A stretch of 36,521 nucleotides of DNA from a virus, in the IMG/VR virus record IMGVR_UViG_3300043436_001485, positions 1-36,521 of that record; one strand, 5' to 3'. Below the pieces are notes generated by a model. That model worked only from the letters and a program-made list of their open reading frames with translations. It did not search any database and had not been told where the DNA came from. This document shows, piece after piece, positions 13,752-20,831 of this stretch (position 1 is its first letter; every line of letters begins with the position of its first letter). Both the position numbers and the translations under genes were made by a program.

Positions 13752-16637
13752 TTAGCGGCGCATGCCGTAGTGTCGTGCCAGATCGGCGATGGAGGCCATG
13801 CCGCCGTTGCGGAACGCCTGCACATGACCGCCACGGCGCGTGGCCATAGGAACGACGACGTTTTGGACCGGCGCGCTTACAGGCATAGGCACCTCTATCT
13901 GTGGCATTTCTGCGCTTAAGCTATGTGCCATTCCGCCCATAGCAAATTCTTGCACAGAGCCGCCTTGGTACATGCCGAGCGCAGGATCACTGCGGTCCGC
14001 AAGTGGGTCAGTTTCAACAAATTCGTTTGTGTCTACGAAATAGCGACGCCCATTCTCGTCCACGGCCGTGTCACGGCCATCCACTTTAACTGAGCCTTCC
14101 TCGCTTTGTGGCGGTTCGGCAAACGCCATCTGGTCGAGGAGGGCCTGTGTCTGCGGGTCGATGATAGGCACTGGCTCTTGCGGCGAGGGAACGCCCGGCT
14201 CGCTGGTCGCACCGCGCTCAATGCCACGGAACAGTGCCGGGGTGTAACGCTCGATGAGCGAACCCAACTCTTGCTGCCCCGGTGTCCGAGATCCGCGAAG
14301 TAGGCCTGCCATTCCGCGATTGCCGAACCTGCTGTAGGGGATCGACGCGAGGAGGCCAGCTCCAAGACCGTAGGCCAATGGCGCGGGCAGCACACTGCTG
14401 CCTTCACCTTCGCCCTGATCGTTGCCACCCTGTTCGGGCTGCGCCATGAGGGAGACGCCGCCGTAGCCGAGGCCTGCACCGCCCGCGACGGCAGGCCCAG
14501 CAAAGCGACCCGTCAAAGAGACGTCATCGTATTTCTTGGGGACGACATCTAGGGACGACATCACCAAGGCGTTGAAGGGGCGATCACCACGCGCGCTGGC
14601 CTTCTTGCCACCGAAGCGGGTCGTGCCTTGCCTAGTGGCCTGACGCAGTTTGGCTGGGTTAAACATGTCGCCGTCTGTTGCGGTATCGACAGCCGTTTCG
14701 AGAATGCTCACGTTGCGATAGGCCTCGTTCGCCTTCTTGAACTTCTGGAAGTTTTCAGGGAACTGGCGCTCTAGAAGACCGCTATAGCCATCGCTGATCT
14801 CGTCGAGCTGCGGGGCGATCTGCGTTCTCCAGCGCGTATCAGTCTTGTAATCGGTTTTGAGTTTCTGCAAGTCTTGCAGAGCCATCTGCAAACCTTCGCC
14901 TGAAAGCTCGCCGTTCGGACCAGCGTATCGTGTGTAGATGTCGTCAACTTCTTGCTGAAGTTCAGGACCAACGTCACGCAACTTAGACAATTTGCCGTAA
15001 GCAGGGCCGCGAACCTGTTGGACGAAATTGGTATCGGGCGTCAAAGTCACGCCATCGAGTGCGTCCTTATACGCGCCGCTCACAGCCTGTTGCGCCTCTG
15101 CGATACCCGTCTGTCCCGGTGCAGACACCTTGGCCCCGATGGGTTTAAGCCCCTCGTCGAACGCCGCAATGTTGAATTGATCCAAGGTCTCGTTGCGGCG
15201 GGCGCGGATTTGGTTACCGACGATAGGTAGAGCCGACACTGTCTGCTCAAAGCCGCCGCCGCCAGTCATCTGACCCGGCGTCAGGTTGAGGCCATACTTG
15301 TCGGCAAGAAGGCGAACGCGCGCAGGTGCGCCCTGCAAAGGCACGCCGATGGTCTTACCGACGACGTTCCCGAAGATGTTGGTGAGGGGCGTCATCATGG
15401 CCTCGTAGATGGCGTTAGACGTCCGTTGACCCGGCTCTGCCGAACCCGCGCCATAGGCGGCGTTCTGTACGATGCCTTCCAAAATACCGCCGCCCGTCTT
15501 GCCGAACTTTGAGGCAATACCCACAGGCAGCAGCGAAGACGTAATACCGCCGACGAGCTGACCTCCGCCGTACTCAAGCGGATACTTTTCTGCCAAGCCG
15601 CGCATAACCGCAGCCGTCTGCTCGCGGTCGCCCGAAAGCTCGTCCACAGTCCCTGCGAGGATCTGGTCAGCGCCGCCTGCGGCGAATGCGCCAAGGGAAC
15701 TGTCACCCGCCGCACCAATGGTGCTTTCACTCGGCACAAACTGCCGCTCAATCCCAACGCGGGGGTCTTTTTTGGTTTTCCGATAATAGTCAATGTTGGC
15801 CTGAAGGTACTTGGTCTTGTCCCCCAGTTCAGGCTGATACTCGTTCAGCCACTGCCGGATTTCAGCTTCAGACCGACCAGCCTTAATCATCGAAGTCACG
15901 GCGGCGTCTACGCCGAGCAACTCAGGGTTCTTCGCCCACTTCCCAGACTTCAGATCGCCACCAGTAGGCATTGGCGGCTCTTCCGTGCCTTTCGGCCTCG
16001 GAAGGCCGACTAAGATAGCGCCTTCTGGCTTGTTGGGGTCGTACCCGGCGTTGTACGCCATGAAACGCCGAGTAGACAGGTCAATGCGGTTGAGCGTGTC
16101 CAGAAGCTGCTCAGTGCTTTGCCCCTCGCGCAGCGAACCCAGCGACCCGGCCAAAAGGTCTAGTTCCTTGCCGGACAGGGCACCAAAGCCCGTCGCGCCT
16201 ACTTTCGACCCAGCGCGGGCCGCTTGCATAGCTTCGAGGACGATTGGGTTCTTTAGGGCCGCAAGCAGGGCGCTAAGGTCGTACGCAGGTGTGCTGTAGA
16301 TGCCGCCAGTAAGCTGCGCCGCAGGGCCGGTAGCCATAGGATTGCTCAGCAGCTTGCGCGCCCGCTGGATGTCTTCCAGAAAGTTACGCATCTGCTCGCG
16401 GTTCTTCTGGGCAGCCGCAGCCTGCGCCGCTTTAGCTGCCTCTTTCGCAGCAGCATCCTCGTCCCTCTTACGCCGCTTCGCCTCAATCGAAAGCTCTTTT
16501 TCTTCAGCCTCAAGCGGTGTGAGCTTCACCACGCGCTCGGTACCAGCCACCGTACTTTCCGTAGATGCGGTGTCCTTGCGATCCTCGCGCGTAGGTGTTG
16601 GCTTGTCAGGTAAGCCCGCTAGAAGTGATTGAACCAT
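13752..16637 (-). CDS. Large internal/ejection-type virion protein (961 aa)
   Basis: Residues about 40-90 form a highly charged Lys/Glu/Ala coiled coil (EAKRRKRDEDAAAKEAAKAA). Gly/Ala-rich, membrane-prone stretches follow at about 330-440 and again near 710-780. The segment LTPGQMTGGGGFEQTVSALP, with a later LDQFNIAAFDEGLKPIG, is a pattern I know from large uncharacterised virion proteins of other phages. The C-terminal 60 residues hold GG motifs: QGGSVQEFAMGGMAH and RRGGHVQAFRNGGM. Size, order and amphipathic segments suggest a protein ejected with DNA. That role is inferred. Confidence 0.75.
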   Translation of the reverse strand: MVQSLLAGLPDKPTPTREDRKDTASTESTVAGTERVVKLTPLEAEEKELSIEAKRRKRDEDAAAKEAAKAAQAAAAQKNREQMRNFLEDIQRARKLLSNPMATGPAAQLTGGIYSTPAYDLSALLAALKNPIVLEAMQAARAGSKVGATGFGALSGKELDLLAGSLGSLREGQSTEQLLDTLNRIDLSTRRFMAYNAGYDPNKPEGAILVGLPRPKGTEEPPMPTGGDLKSGKWAKNPELLGVDAAVTSMIKAGRSEAEIRQWLNEYQPELGDKTKYLQANIDYYRKTKKDPRVGIERQFVPSESTIGAAGDSSLGAFAAGGADQILAGTVDELSGDREQTAAVMRGLAEKYPLEYGGGQLVGGITSSLLPVGIASKFGKTGGGILEGIVQNAAYGAGSAEPGQRTSNAIYEAMMTPLTNIFGNVVGKTIGVPLQGAPARVRLLADKYGLNLTPGQMTGGGGFEQTVSALPIVGNQIRARRNETLDQFNIAAFDEGLKPIGAKVSAPGQTGIAEAQQAVSGAYKDALDGVTLTPDTNFVQQVRGPAYGKLSKLRDVGPELQQEVDDIYTRYAGPNGELSGEGLQMALQDLQKLKTDYKTDTRWRTQIAPQLDEISDGYSGLLERQFPENFQKFKKANEAYRNVSILETAVDTATDGDMFNPAKLRQATRQGTTRFGGKKASARGDRPFNALVMSSLDVVPKKYDDVSLTGRFAGPAVAGGAGLGYGGVSLMAQPEQGGNDQGEGEGSSVLPAPLAYGLGAGLLASIPYSRFGNRGMAGLLRGSRTPGQQELGSLIERYTPALFRGIERGATSEPGVPSPQEPVPIIDPQTQALLDQMAFAEPPQSEEGSVKVDGRDTAVDENGRRYFVDTNEFVETDPLADRSDPALGMYQGGSVQEFAMGGMAHSLSAEMPQIEVPMPVSAPVQNVVVPMATRRGGHVQAFRNGGMASIADLARHYGMRR

Positions 16638-16693: not shown

Positions 16694-17428
16694 CACATAT
16701 TTAGGCTTCATTGGATCCTGTCCAACTTCGACTACGGGGGTGTTAGGCGGTAAGTACTCAAGTTGCCGCCTGTCCGTGATGACGTAGTTTCCGAATTGGT
16801 CCATAGCTGGCATGGTTGGGTAATTGCCTGTCCCCGGCTGGACGCGCCAAGCGCCATCGGCAAACACGAGTTTTGGCTCCTCGCTTTTTTTAGCCTTTGC
16901 GTTAATATTCGCCATAGCGAGCGACGTCGTCAAGCCCTGCTTGGCGAGGCCCACCTGCTGAGCGAGCCTGTCGGCGCTCAGCTTATCAAGCGCCTCACGG
17001 CGGCTGATATTACCCTCGCGCTGGGCCTTCTGCTGCGCCGCTAAGACGGGCGTGATGTTTTCCAAGACGCCGCCAAAGCCACGACGCGTTGTCGGTTGGG
17101 CTAACGCCGCCGACAACTGGAACATGCGCTCGCTGAACGAAGGGCCGTACCGTTTTTCCGCCAGAGCCTTCTCCAGCGCGTCATACCGAGACGTTTGCTC
17201 CTTTGCGAGCTTGTCGAGGTTGGCCATAGCACTGCGGACAGCCGGATCGCTGTACACCGCCAGACCACCGACTTCCGCGTCTGCGGCATCTACGTCAGCG
17301 ACAGTGCCGAGGGCACCTAAATCTTCGTCCATCGTAACTTCCTCTGTGTCGGGCGAACCCAATTCTTCCTGCATTTTACGGATGTGGTCAATCTGCCACT
17401 GCGCGAGGGGTGGGCTTCCCACGGTCAC
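16652..17428 (-). CDS. Conserved virion-type protein with repeat tail (258 aa)
   Basis: The start is a GTG at 17428 that overlaps the previous stop by 4 nt. Residues about 30-55 are acidic. The central part, FSERMFQLSAALAQPTTRRG followed by FGGVLENITPVLAAQQKAQR, is a pattern I associate with a conserved family found next to internal virion genes. A helical segment runs to about residue 180. The C-terminal third is Pro/Tyr-rich (LEYLPPNTPVVEVGQD) and ends in the short PDRAN repeat. It lies between the 347-aa and 961-aa proteins and is probably part of the same virion sub-assembly. Confidence 0.7.
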   Translation of the reverse strand: MTVGSPPLAQWQIDHIRKMQEELGSPDTEEVTMDEDLGALGTVADVDAADAEVGGLAVYSDPAVRSAMANLDKLAKEQTSRYDALEKALAEKRYGPSFSERMFQLSAALAQPTTRRGFGGVLENITPVLAAQQKAQREGNISRREALDKLSADRLAQQVGLAKQGLTTSLAMANINAKAKKSEEPKLVFADGAWRVQPGTGNYPTMPAMDQFGNYVITDRRQLEYLPPNTPVVEVGQDPMKPKYVPDRANPDRANQDR

Positions 17429-18468
17429 TTACCCTTCAAGGAGCCGACGATACCCGCCGCAGCGGTTAGCGCGCTGGCGATGTCCTTACCAGTCGATGAG
17501 TACTCCTGTCTGACGCCCGACGGTGAAAGACCATACTCTTGCGATGCACTCGGCACACCGGAGGCGACGCCTTGGAACGTCTTGAGCAGGTTGTTGATCT
17601 GCTCCTGTTCGTAGCCCTGCTGACGCAACCAGTCGGCGTATGCCACGTCGAGGTTCTTCTGACCCAACTGCTGTTGCAGCGCGCCGACGTTACCAATCGC
17701 ATTCGCGCCAGTGAGGCCGAGTTCTTGCGCCCGTGCGCCAAGGTTCGACAGAGCGCCGGATGCCGCGAGCTGCTGTGCCTGCTGTGTCTGCGCCAAGCCG
17801 CCAATCGTGTTTGCGAGTGTGCCAAAGCGCGACAAGTCGGTGCCTGCAAGCCCTGCGGCCTCAGAGTAGCCAGACTGAAGAGCCTTCGCCTGCTGCGCGA
17901 GGATGTCGGCGCTAACGTCACGAACGGCGCGTGAAGTGTCGGTCATCATGCCCGACGGCGTGCCCGCGCCGTCACGGGCACCGTAGCCGAGTTGACCGGC
18001 CTGAATATAGCGCCCCTCGATCTGGGGCATAATATTTTCGGTGAGGTTGCGTGTGCCCAACTCGGCAATGCGGTTGGTGACGGCCTCGTTGTACGGGTTC
18101 ATGTACTGGCCGATGTTCGACACGGATGTCTGACCCGCCTGCGTTAGGTAAGGCTGCGCTACGTTTAGCGCGCCCGGCGCGTCTGCGGCAGCCTGTGCGG
18201 CAGTCGTGGCTTGACTGAGATAAGGCTGGTACGCGCCAGCCGCAGTCTCTGTCAGGCCGAAGGACTTCTCTTGCAGCGGCGTGAAGCCCGCAACGCGTGG
18301 CATAGGCGCAGTCGCATACGGACGACCGGCTATGGCCTGCTGACCCGCCAAGATGTCCATCGCATAATTGGTGTACCACTCAGGTAGCACCTGCTGTTTG
18401 GTCATGTCCGTGAGGGCCGAGCCTTGCGGGATTTCCATCCCTTCAGCTAGAAATGAACTGACAGCCAT
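17425..18468 (-). CDS. Conserved phage structural protein, helical (347 aa)
   Basis: The N-terminus reads QQVLPEWYTNYAMDILAGQQ, then PRVAGFTPLQEKSF. Later come QYMNPYNEAVTNRIAELGTR and YIQAGQLGYGAR, which I recognise as a conserved pattern in virion proteins of many aquatic podovirus-like phages. It is Ala/Gln-rich and almost entirely helical (about residues 65-300), ending in a small Gly/Ala segment. It is not a known enzyme. The 1-nt overlap with the 787-aa gene and 4-nt overlap with the 258-aa gene suggest a stoichiometric virion complex, perhaps equivalent to small ejection proteins. Its function is not established by sequence. Confidence 0.75.
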   Translation of the reverse strand: MAVSSFLAEGMEIPQGSALTDMTKQQVLPEWYTNYAMDILAGQQAIAGRPYATAPMPRVAGFTPLQEKSFGLTETAAGAYQPYLSQATTAAQAAADAPGALNVAQPYLTQAGQTSVSNIGQYMNPYNEAVTNRIAELGTRNLTENIMPQIEGRYIQAGQLGYGARDGAGTPSGMMTDTSRAVRDVSADILAQQAKALQSGYSEAAGLAGTDLSRFGTLANTIGGLAQTQQAQQLAASGALSNLGARAQELGLTGANAIGNVGALQQQLGQKNLDVAYADWLRQQGYEQEQINNLLKTFQGVASGVPSASQEYGLSPSGVRQEYSSTGKDIASALTAAAGIVGSLKGK

Positions 18469-20831
18469 TAAACGCGTCCTCCAGACAGATATGCTTCGGG
18501 GTTCTTGGCATTAGCACTAAAACGGCCCTTTGCCAACTTCTTGCCCTTGTGTTTACGAACTTTAACTCGAAGCTCATCCAGCTTCTTTGCGCCAGCCTTG
18601 CTCGACCCATCGCCCAGTAGGGCGACAGTCTCGGCGTCGATGACATATTCACCGTCGGACAGCACCGCAGGGATGTCGTCGCTGCGTCCAGTGCCGGGGC
18701 CATTGACTGCAAATTCAGTGCGGCGTGGTGAGCCACCGCCCTTTGCGGCGAACATGCCGCCTTCAGCGAAACGCATGTCGTCGGGGACGTACATCGACGG
18801 GCCGTATTTGCCGCCGGGACGGTAATCGGGGTGGTACATTGAGTAGTCGCCTTGCGCTGGCGTCCCGACTGGTCTGTCCGCAGCCATGATTGGTCCGGCG
18901 GGGTTGCCGGGCACGGGCGTTGTGACAGGTGTCGGCAACGCAGTCCGTGGCGAGTAGTCGAAGAAACTAAGCTCAGGCCGTGTGCCGTAAGTCAGCCAGT
19001 CTACGTCGCCCATCGGGCGCTGGGTGCGGTTCATGCCGATAGCGCCGAGGCCGCCTGCGGATGGCAGCTTGGCCGAGAAGATTGGGTTCAAGCGACCTGT
19101 GCCGCCACGGGTGTACGTGCCAGCTTGGCCTGTGCCGCCTTTACCGCCACTGAGGCCGCCGACGAGACCAGAGGCAAGGCCCGCGATGCGCAGGTATTGT
19201 TCAAGGCCGAGCTTCTTCCGAGCTTCTTCAGCCTTTCTTTCCGCTTCAGACTTTTGATTGATATCGGTGAGCAAATCTTGCGATAGATTTAGGCCGCCAG
19301 TAACGGGCCGCTCAATCTTATTACCCGTTACAACGATCTGCTCGGAGCTGTCGGTAACCTCGCCGGGGCGCTTTCCTGAAACGACAATATCGTCGGTAGT
19401 GTTTATAGCAGGGTCCGCTATCAAACCGCTTAAAGACGTAACCGCACCGGGGCGTTGGCCCGTTACGACAATCTCGTTGGTGTTGTTCGCGGCGGGGCCT
19501 CCCGTCGGACCAGCTAAGTTCAAGCCACCGGTAACCGCGCCGGGGACCGAGCCGGTGACATTGATGAGGTCGCCGTCGTACCCGGTGTTGTAAGGCCGAC
19601 CTGTTCGAGGGTCGCTAAATTCGTCTGAGGCGGCATCATCCAAATACTTTTGCGTCGGCGTTTTGAACCCACCGAGCTTTATGTTTGGCGTTGAGAAGGC
19701 AGGAGCGTTGACTATGATGTCCGCATTCGGGCCTCCGTAAACGGCGTCGCCGCCGGTGCTAGTGCTTGCGGCGGTGTTACCGCCACGGAAGATACTGCCA
19801 GACTTAGAGCTTATGCCCAGCTCGCGTTGAATGTCGGGCGCGACGTAACTAAGCGCGCCGGAAGCTACCCCGCCGAGAAGCGAGTTCTTCAGGCTCTGGC
19901 CGGTAACCAAGCCGCCTGCGGTTGAGCCGAGGCCCGTACCTATCGCAGTGGCGAGTTTCGGGGCCAAGTTAGTGCCGAGAGCGCCTCCGGCCCCAAGTGC
20001 AGGGCCGAGTACTTGACCGCCAGCGGCAGACAAGCCGCCCATAGCAACGCCCTTGAGAATATTGTTGCCCTTCAGCGCGGCACCCGCACCGCCAGCGAGA
20101 GCGGCAGAAGCAACGGGGCCGAGGAATTGAAGACCGGGTATGAGGCTGACTGCGATTGGTAGCGCCGTCCCCGCCACGTCCGCGATCTTACCCAGCGTGC
20201 TCTTGTTCTTCTTCTCGTACGCAACGGTCGAATAGTTACCAGTTGGGTCTGCGGTCTGAATGCTGTAATTCGCCTTGCGACCAAACTGGTCCGTAAGGCT
20301 TTGACCTAACTCAGTTGCCTTGCGTGCGGCGTCGAAGCCCGACCCCTCGAACACAACCTGATTGGTGCGATGGTCGACGAGGCGCACCGGCTGATCGGCT
20401 CGCACCGCAAAAGTGTTTCCACCCGTCTGCGAAGTGGCGTTGCCTTTGTTAGACTTTGGCGCGCCGATATACTGTAGGTTTGGATCGGGCTGATATTGGC
20501 CGCCCATAGCGCCACCACCAAAGTCTGTGCCGAAGTTCAGTCCGCTCAAATCCAGACCAGCCAAAGCACCGAGGTCGTAAGGCGCAACAGCTTCCTGTGT
20601 CATCGGCTGCGCGGCGGGGAGGGACTGGTACGGCTCAACGTAAGGAGCTGCGGCAGGCGCTACGGCCTCTTGTGTCATCGGCTGCACGGCAGGCAGATAC
20701 TGCTGCTCAACGGGCGGGGCAATCATCTCACCTTCATAAACGTCCTCCCCAGCGAACCGCGCAGGGCCACCCTTCGCGTAGCGCGGCATGGACGTTTCCA
20801 GATAGTTGCTGAAGCCGGGGATGTAATTCAT
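18468..20831 (-). CDS. Large virion protein with TonB-box-like repeats and IPA-LS-GEY domain (787 aa)
   Basis: The N-terminus has RYAKGGPARF and a duplicated Pro-rich segment (PAVQPMTQEAVAP and PAAQPMTQEAVAP, about residues 45-85). Residues about 215-345 are Gly/Ala-rich and hydrophobic. Between 371 and 503 there are five TonB-box-like motifs: DIIVNA (371), DLINVTG (421), EIVVTGQR (453), DIVVSGKR (481) and QIVVTGNK (498). The C-terminal region holds GGMFAAKGGG and then RSDDIPAVLSDGEYVIDAET, a motif widespread in phage structural proteins, and ends LSGGRV. Hydrophobic and glycine-rich parts suggest membrane contact during ejection. It overlaps the next and previous genes by 1 and 4 nt. Confidence 0.75.
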   Translation of the reverse strand: MNYIPGFSNYLETSMPRYAKGGPARFAGEDVYEGEMIAPPVEQQYLPAVQPMTQEAVAPAAAPYVEPYQSLPAAQPMTQEAVAPYDLGALAGLDLSGLNFGTDFGGGAMGGQYQPDPNLQYIGAPKSNKGNATSQTGGNTFAVRADQPVRLVDHRTNQVVFEGSGFDAARKATELGQSLTDQFGRKANYSIQTADPTGNYSTVAYEKKNKSTLGKIADVAGTALPIAVSLIPGLQFLGPVASAALAGGAGAALKGNNILKGVAMGGLSAAGGQVLGPALGAGGALGTNLAPKLATAIGTGLGSTAGGLVTGQSLKNSLLGGVASGALSYVAPDIQRELGISSKSGSIFRGGNTAASTSTGGDAVYGGPNADIIVNAPAFSTPNIKLGGFKTPTQKYLDDAASDEFSDPRTGRPYNTGYDGDLINVTGSVPGAVTGGLNLAGPTGGPAANNTNEIVVTGQRPGAVTSLSGLIADPAINTTDDIVVSGKRPGEVTDSSEQIVVTGNKIERPVTGGLNLSQDLLTDINQKSEAERKAEEARKKLGLEQYLRIAGLASGLVGGLSGGKGGTGQAGTYTRGGTGRLNPIFSAKLPSAGGLGAIGMNRTQRPMGDVDWLTYGTRPELSFFDYSPRTALPTPVTTPVPGNPAGPIMAADRPVGTPAQGDYSMYHPDYRPGGKYGPSMYVPDDMRFAEGGMFAAKGGGSPRRTEFAVNGPGTGRSDDIPAVLSDGEYVIDAETVALLGDGSSKAGAKKLDELRVKVRKHKGKKLAKGRFSANAKNPEAYLSGGRV
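19320..19721 (-). repeat. Imperfect repeats encoding TonB-box-like motifs
   Basis: Within the 787-aa protein, the motifs start at residues 371, 421, 453, 481 and 498. The clearest pair is EIVVTGQRPGAVT and DIVVSGKRPGEVT; GAVTGGLNL and PVTGGLNL follow the second and fifth motifs. The repeats are irregularly spaced (17-50 residues) and diverged, so they look selected rather than freshly duplicated. Confidence 0.6.

Follow-up and report, generated by a model that had tools for sequence, protein, structure and literature searches.

The window analysed here, a 36,521-nt stretch of viral DNA (positions 1–36,521 of IMG/VR virus record IMGVR_UViG_3300043436_001485), encodes a protein of 787 amino acids (aa) carrying several motifs that resemble TonB boxes. 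A TonB box is a short motif that binds periplasmic TonB; bacteriocins such as klebicin C, which bear one in a disordered region, are imported by TonB-ExbBD (PMC12927319). By sequence comparison and structure prediction we show that the sites in the 787-aa protein fit a TonB-box profile in register, fall in a linker predicted to be disordered, and persist in many homologues while that linker changes. On balance we consider it probable that this is an ejection-block virion protein whose linker displays TonB boxes that would engage periplasmic TonB during entry. That TonB boxes occur in a disordered stretch of a probably injected protein suggests that a freshwater bacterial virus family may, like some bacteriocins, borrow the TonB motor to enter the cell. 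The gene and its box-like sites are as follows:

18468–20831, minus strand: open reading frame (ORF) of the 787-aa protein, box carrier of the ejection block, syntenic with GP066c of Caulobacter phage RW.
19452–19475, minus strand: EIVVTGQR, residues 453–460, TonB-box-like, 21.6 bits (as NEIVVTGQR).
19368–19391, minus strand: DIVVSGKR, residues 481–488, TonB-box-like, 14.6 bits (as DDIVVSGKR).
19317–19340, minus strand: QIVVTGNK, residues 498–505, TonB-box-like, 18.6 bits (as EQIVVTGNK).
19698–19721, minus strand: DIIVNAPA, residues 371–378, weaker box-like site, below the strong threshold.
19551–19571, minus strand: DLINVTG, residues 421–427, weaker box-like site, below the strong threshold.

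Sites were scored with a nine-column profile made from 58 recognisable boxes in the N-terminal regions of 60 alphaproteobacterial transporter matches, and a site was called strong when it scored above the 10th percentile of these true boxes, 11.4 bits. The 787-aa protein has three strong sites, compared with none in the other 26 of the 27 window proteins tested; shuffled versions of it averaged 0.013 strong sites, and 0 of 5000 shuffles had three. An earlier note on this DNA had listed five motifs within 135 residues of the protein, had called DIIVNA and DLINVTG the weaker two, and had likened the set to alphaproteobacterial TonB boxes. All five are where it placed them (residues 371–505), the three strong sites bear out the likeness, and the weaker two do score under the strong threshold. 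The motif observation is thereby confirmed, at the level of sequence, and is firmer than it was from the window alone. Both weaker sites have counterparts in homologues: DIIVNAPA aligns with AEIVVNAPA (8.0 bits) and AEIIVNATP (11.2 bits), and DLINVTG is related to DLIKVTG sites of about 8–11 bits. The three strong copies differ in their synonymous codons and therefore do not reflect a recent DNA duplication.

All five sites lie in a single segment of the protein:

19257–19814, minus strand: disordered linker, residues 340–525, of varying length among homologues, per-residue model confidence (pLDDT) mostly 26–45.

An AlphaFold model of the 787-aa protein built with 24 homologues, of low overall confidence (predicted template modelling score 0.26), leaves this linker nearly devoid of secondary structure. 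With low pLDDT used as a proxy for disorder, the linker is predicted to be disordered, which places the motifs outside any predicted fold; the predicted structure is that of the flexible, accessible segment in which a TonB box is expected.

We next consider homologues, which were gathered by homology and not by motif. Their linkers vary greatly in length and sequence. The first set (n = 23, non-redundant) contains 74 sites scoring 7 bits or more, compared with 2.5 expected from shuffled linkers, with at least one site in all 23 proteins and a strong site in 18. A second set of 33 homologues, distinct from the first, has 83 sites against 4.5 expected, with a site present in 28 and a strong site in 22. 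The box is thus kept in most homologues, not in all, while its flanks drift. The earlier note had regarded absence of the motifs from homologues, or their free variation together with burial in a folded domain, as outcomes that would speak against a TonB-box reading; with the linker predicted to be disordered and the motif kept, neither describes what we found. Variants such as DEIVVTGNK, EDIVVTGTK, PETVVTAQK, DEIKVTAPK, EEQVVSARR and GEILVQAAR indicate that the motif varies among homologues as real TonB boxes do.

These counts bear on the idea that a beta-prone unit duplicates in tandem within a fast-changing disordered linker and resembles TonB boxes by chance. Linkers do grow by tandem duplication, as in the repeated EEILVNARE units of L032, and some relatives have lost the motifs. 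We nonetheless regard such neutral drift as very improbable: the sites are enriched about 18- to 30-fold over shuffled sequence in the two sets; and synonymous codon identity between copies inside one protein is near that of independent draws (a weak test, as box and non-box sites are mixed), so the copies are not fresh duplications and their likeness is at the protein level. Exact-motif scans of viral contigs also returned proteins with multiple copies (two to six) in 13 of 135 ORFs, whereas a permuted motif gave none in 59.

The register of the motif was examined by choosing sites on [ILV]-x-V alone and then inspecting the remaining columns. In the first set, acidic residues occupy position −2 in 46% of sites (11% in linkers), Thr/Ser/Asn position +3 in 61% (21%), Gly/Ala position +4 in 76% (24%), and Arg/Lys position +6 in 30% (7%), with none at +8. 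The second set reproduces this TonB-box register, [DE][DE]-I-x-V-[TSN]-[GA]-x-[RK]. No such pattern was seen at +3, +4 or +6 in 560 other viral ORFs, which contain 3379 [ILV]xV sites, and Gly/Ala is not enriched at +4 in the remaining sequence of the same homologue proteins. Because related proteins do not supply independent sites, P values overstate certainty; it is the replication and the control on other viral ORFs that carry the register argument.

The 787-aa gene is encoded with predicted DNA-ejection genes in an order kept in Caulobacter phage RW, a Riverwalkvirus of Caulobacter vibrioides (PMC11053796) and the nearest cultured relative of the window phage. Two further genes of this block are referred to below:

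17425–18468, minus strand: next gene, predicted DNA-ejection protein of 347 aa (phrog_4287, E 1.5e-6).
13752–16637, minus strand: block member of 961 aa, with a weak match to phrog_2534 ('released from the phage upon host infection'; E 1.5e-5).

The 347-aa gene overlaps the stop of the 787-aa gene, and its product is 52% identical to RW GP065c; the replication genes of the window lie on the plus strand. We infer from gene order and weak family matches that the 787-aa product is a late virion protein. More than 500 stretches related to it were found across viral contigs.

A second large protein of this block carries a box in some relatives only. A scan of every remaining ORF in the homologue loci, about 191,000 residues with spurious frames counted, gave a strong site in five, four of which are large proteins encoded downstream in the same block. 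Each of these four has a single copy: PSEEIVVTATEGYP in L006 and L017, PSEDIVVTATEGYP in L023 and AAEEQITVTGTRNP in L036; EEIVVTATE and EQITVTGTR are forms that the box takes in this second protein of relatives. They score 16.8–19.4 bits, shuffle rates giving an estimate of about three chance matches at a lower threshold, and amount to about two independent cases. The window's own 961-aa protein has no strong box by the transporter profile. Three of the four box-bearing second proteins share its C-terminus: over the last ~30 residues (about GxVQAFRNGGMASIADLARHYGMRR) those of L006, L017 and L023 are 69–93% identical to it, and they otherwise have no blast match to it. A role as a tag for packaging or assembly is possible for this shared stretch.

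The position of the boxes in the ejection block also bears on whether the protein acts as a decoy that has no part in driving entry and instead occupies TonB and blocks TonB-dependent uptake, for instance shutting out competing phages or bacteriocins. Titration would be well served by many tandem boxes, and a TonB-box pentapeptide reportedly inhibits TonB-dependent processes in vivo, to go by the title of a 1992 paper by Tuckman and Osburne cited in PMC7142613. A protein encoded beside a predicted ejection gene would, however, enter the cell in few copies, and a box in a second block protein of relatives likewise fits entry better than titration. We therefore consider a decoy improbable.

The multi-copy proteins from the exact-motif scans include family relatives (L084, L092, L122) and other architectures (L059, L196, L275, L285). 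Five tandem box-like motifs each are found in L059:2499–3728 and L196:2105–3466, which have another architecture, and the linkers of L092 and L196 have no match among cultured phages. L275 and L285 are siphophage-type tape-measure proteins with two close boxes each (EIVVSGRR and EIVVTAQR; EIVVTAQR and EIVVTASR); a Marinobacter phage PS3 relative of the L285 protein has no boxes. Tape-measure families are matched by at least 11 of the 107 viral ORFs selected for boxes, against about 1 of 52 for the permuted motif, an excess that we do not count as evidence, given the length of these proteins and the preponderance of integrases and invertases in the permuted set. Transporters were rejected as the source of the viral matches, with a Plug domain in only 7 of the 107. 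One transporter-rich genome belongs to an order with five genomes, and none of these gave a match when searched for tape-measure proteins.

Several observations weigh against an entry role through TonB. Five of the 33 second-set homologues have no site of at least 7 bits, and relatives of the C-terminal domain in two gammaproteobacterial bins have no boxes despite 15 and 30 plug domains per genome. RW GP066c is homologous to the window protein and keeps the same gene order, whereas its linker is shorter and has Pro instead of Gly/Ala (DEIVVTPSQ, DPVVVNPP, SPVTVSPP, DELVIKPP), with only one strong site by profile (DEIVVTPSQ, 17.0 bits). The profile itself leans to canonical-looking boxes, since those used to train it were chosen near the plug domain with a simple score. 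No significant match came from fold comparison of the 787-aa model (best E 0.05). Prophage tape-measure proteins as a class are without boxes: we rejected the idea that tape-measure proteins generally carry them, as PF10145 loci from alphaproteobacteria (30) and gammaproteobacteria (30) had no strong site and those from actinobacteria (18) had one marginal match. Boxes are therefore a feature of certain lineages. The TonB-box reading of the earlier note is accordingly supported in part: its sequence-level predictions held, the mechanism is a proposal, and the relatives without boxes and the Pro at the Gly/Ala position in RW count against it.

The Pro-bearing RW copy, the relatives without boxes, and the wide variation in copy number and spacing would all suit a strand-forming linear motif that binds a partner other than TonB, either a virion protein in assembly or another periplasmic host protein, the likeness then being convergence on a beta-augmentation motif. 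Strand addition demands little sequence specificity, which also favours this explanation. We judge it unlikely, though deserving of serious attention, since all columns of the transporter motif match, including Arg/Lys at +6 and not at +8, which is unexpected for a general strand motif, and since the same motif is found in a different block protein of relatives and in unrelated multi-copy phage proteins.

The remaining features of the 787-aa protein are as follows:

20211–20489, minus strand: folded alpha/beta domain, residues 115–207, pLDDT mostly 70–93, conserved in the family.
19821–20198, minus strand: Gly/Ala-rich hydrophobic helices, residues 212–337, modelled at low confidence.
19161–19247, minus strand: helix after the linker, residues 529–557 (DSSP on the model, low confidence), with the conserved KKLGLEEYLRIAGL segment.
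18471–18770, minus strand: conserved C-terminal region resembling tape-measure C-termini, residues 688–787 (phrog_6090).

The Gly/Ala-rich helices have a hydropathy peak of 1.67 around residues 213–241 and are a possible membrane segment. Their fold matches to Tim22/Tim23 and complex I membrane subunits are weak and non-significant. The region C-terminal of the 529–557 helix is mostly unstructured in the model. The phrog_6090 match covers residues 708–787 (E 2.2e-6), and residues 704–787 are 74% identical to phage RW. The C-terminal GPGTGRSDDIPAVLSDGEYVI stretch (18471–18770; L301–L311) also ends tape-measure-like proteins, including those of Streptomyces and Arthrobacter phages, which have Gram-positive hosts. 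In the disordered N-terminal part (20580–20700) an LPAxQPMTQEAVAP repeat occurs twice, and PMTQEA is present in most homologues. A Pfam search of the 787-aa protein gave no match; it has neither the plug nor the beta-barrel of a TonB-dependent transporter, and PF00593 is absent from the record. Likeness to tape-measure families does not extend along the full length, being confined to the C-terminal part (residues 708–787 at best).

We propose that on infection the 787-aa protein would leave the virion, that its hydrophobic helices would enter the envelope and that its linker would reach the periplasm. Ejection, envelope entry and presentation of the boxes to TonB are inferred steps. The boxes could then add as strands to the C-terminal domain of host TonB, like those of transporters and group B bacteriocins, and TonB may draw on the proton motive force to pull or anchor the ejected complex and so help form or open a path for DNA; several boxes might give avidity or repeated pulling. 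More broadly, the chances are close to even, if slightly adverse, that a large group of tailed phages, infecting Gram-negative and probably alphaproteobacterial bacteria, harnesses TonB-ExbBD for crossing the periplasm by means of tandem boxes carried on ejected proteins, as a counterpart of group B colicin import. In favour of the TonB reading, C. vibrioides, the host of RW, is an alphaproteobacterium with the TonB plug family, and RW GP066c does have the strong site DEIVVTPSQ. Assignment of the window's host through genome bins failed, as close matches look like phage contigs in metagenome bins.

How ejected proteins and DNA of tailed phages cross the periplasm, and with what energy source, is largely open. 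If the proposal is true, boxes on an ejection-block protein would tie entry directly to the host TonB motor with no receptor as intermediary. We found no earlier description of such boxes in the open-access literature, most subscription papers being outside this coverage. Filamentous phage g3p, a virion protein, offers a parallel, as it engages TolA, on the periplasmic side of a force-transducing envelope system; that case involves Tol and not Ton, a folded domain instead of a linear motif, and a filamentous instead of a tailed phage. With TonB-dependent outer-membrane transporters the phage protein shares profile and register, [DE][DE]-I-x-V-T-[GA]-x-[RK], while having no plug or barrel and bearing its motif in tandem and mid-protein. 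Among tailed phages, T1 and phi80 need TonB for entry, and irreversible adsorption of T1 requires it (PMC11658791); there TonB acts with the host receptor FhuA, whereas here the phage protein itself bears the boxes. TonB-dependent bacteriocins (colicins B, M, Ia, 5 and 10, pyocin S2 and klebicin C) resemble the 787-aa protein in having a TonB box in a disordered region, and TonB-ExbBD pulls them into the envelope from outside the cell (PMC12927319, PMC11658791). They have one box in the disordered N-terminal region of a toxin, whereas the phage proteins have up to about six or more putative boxes in an internal linker.
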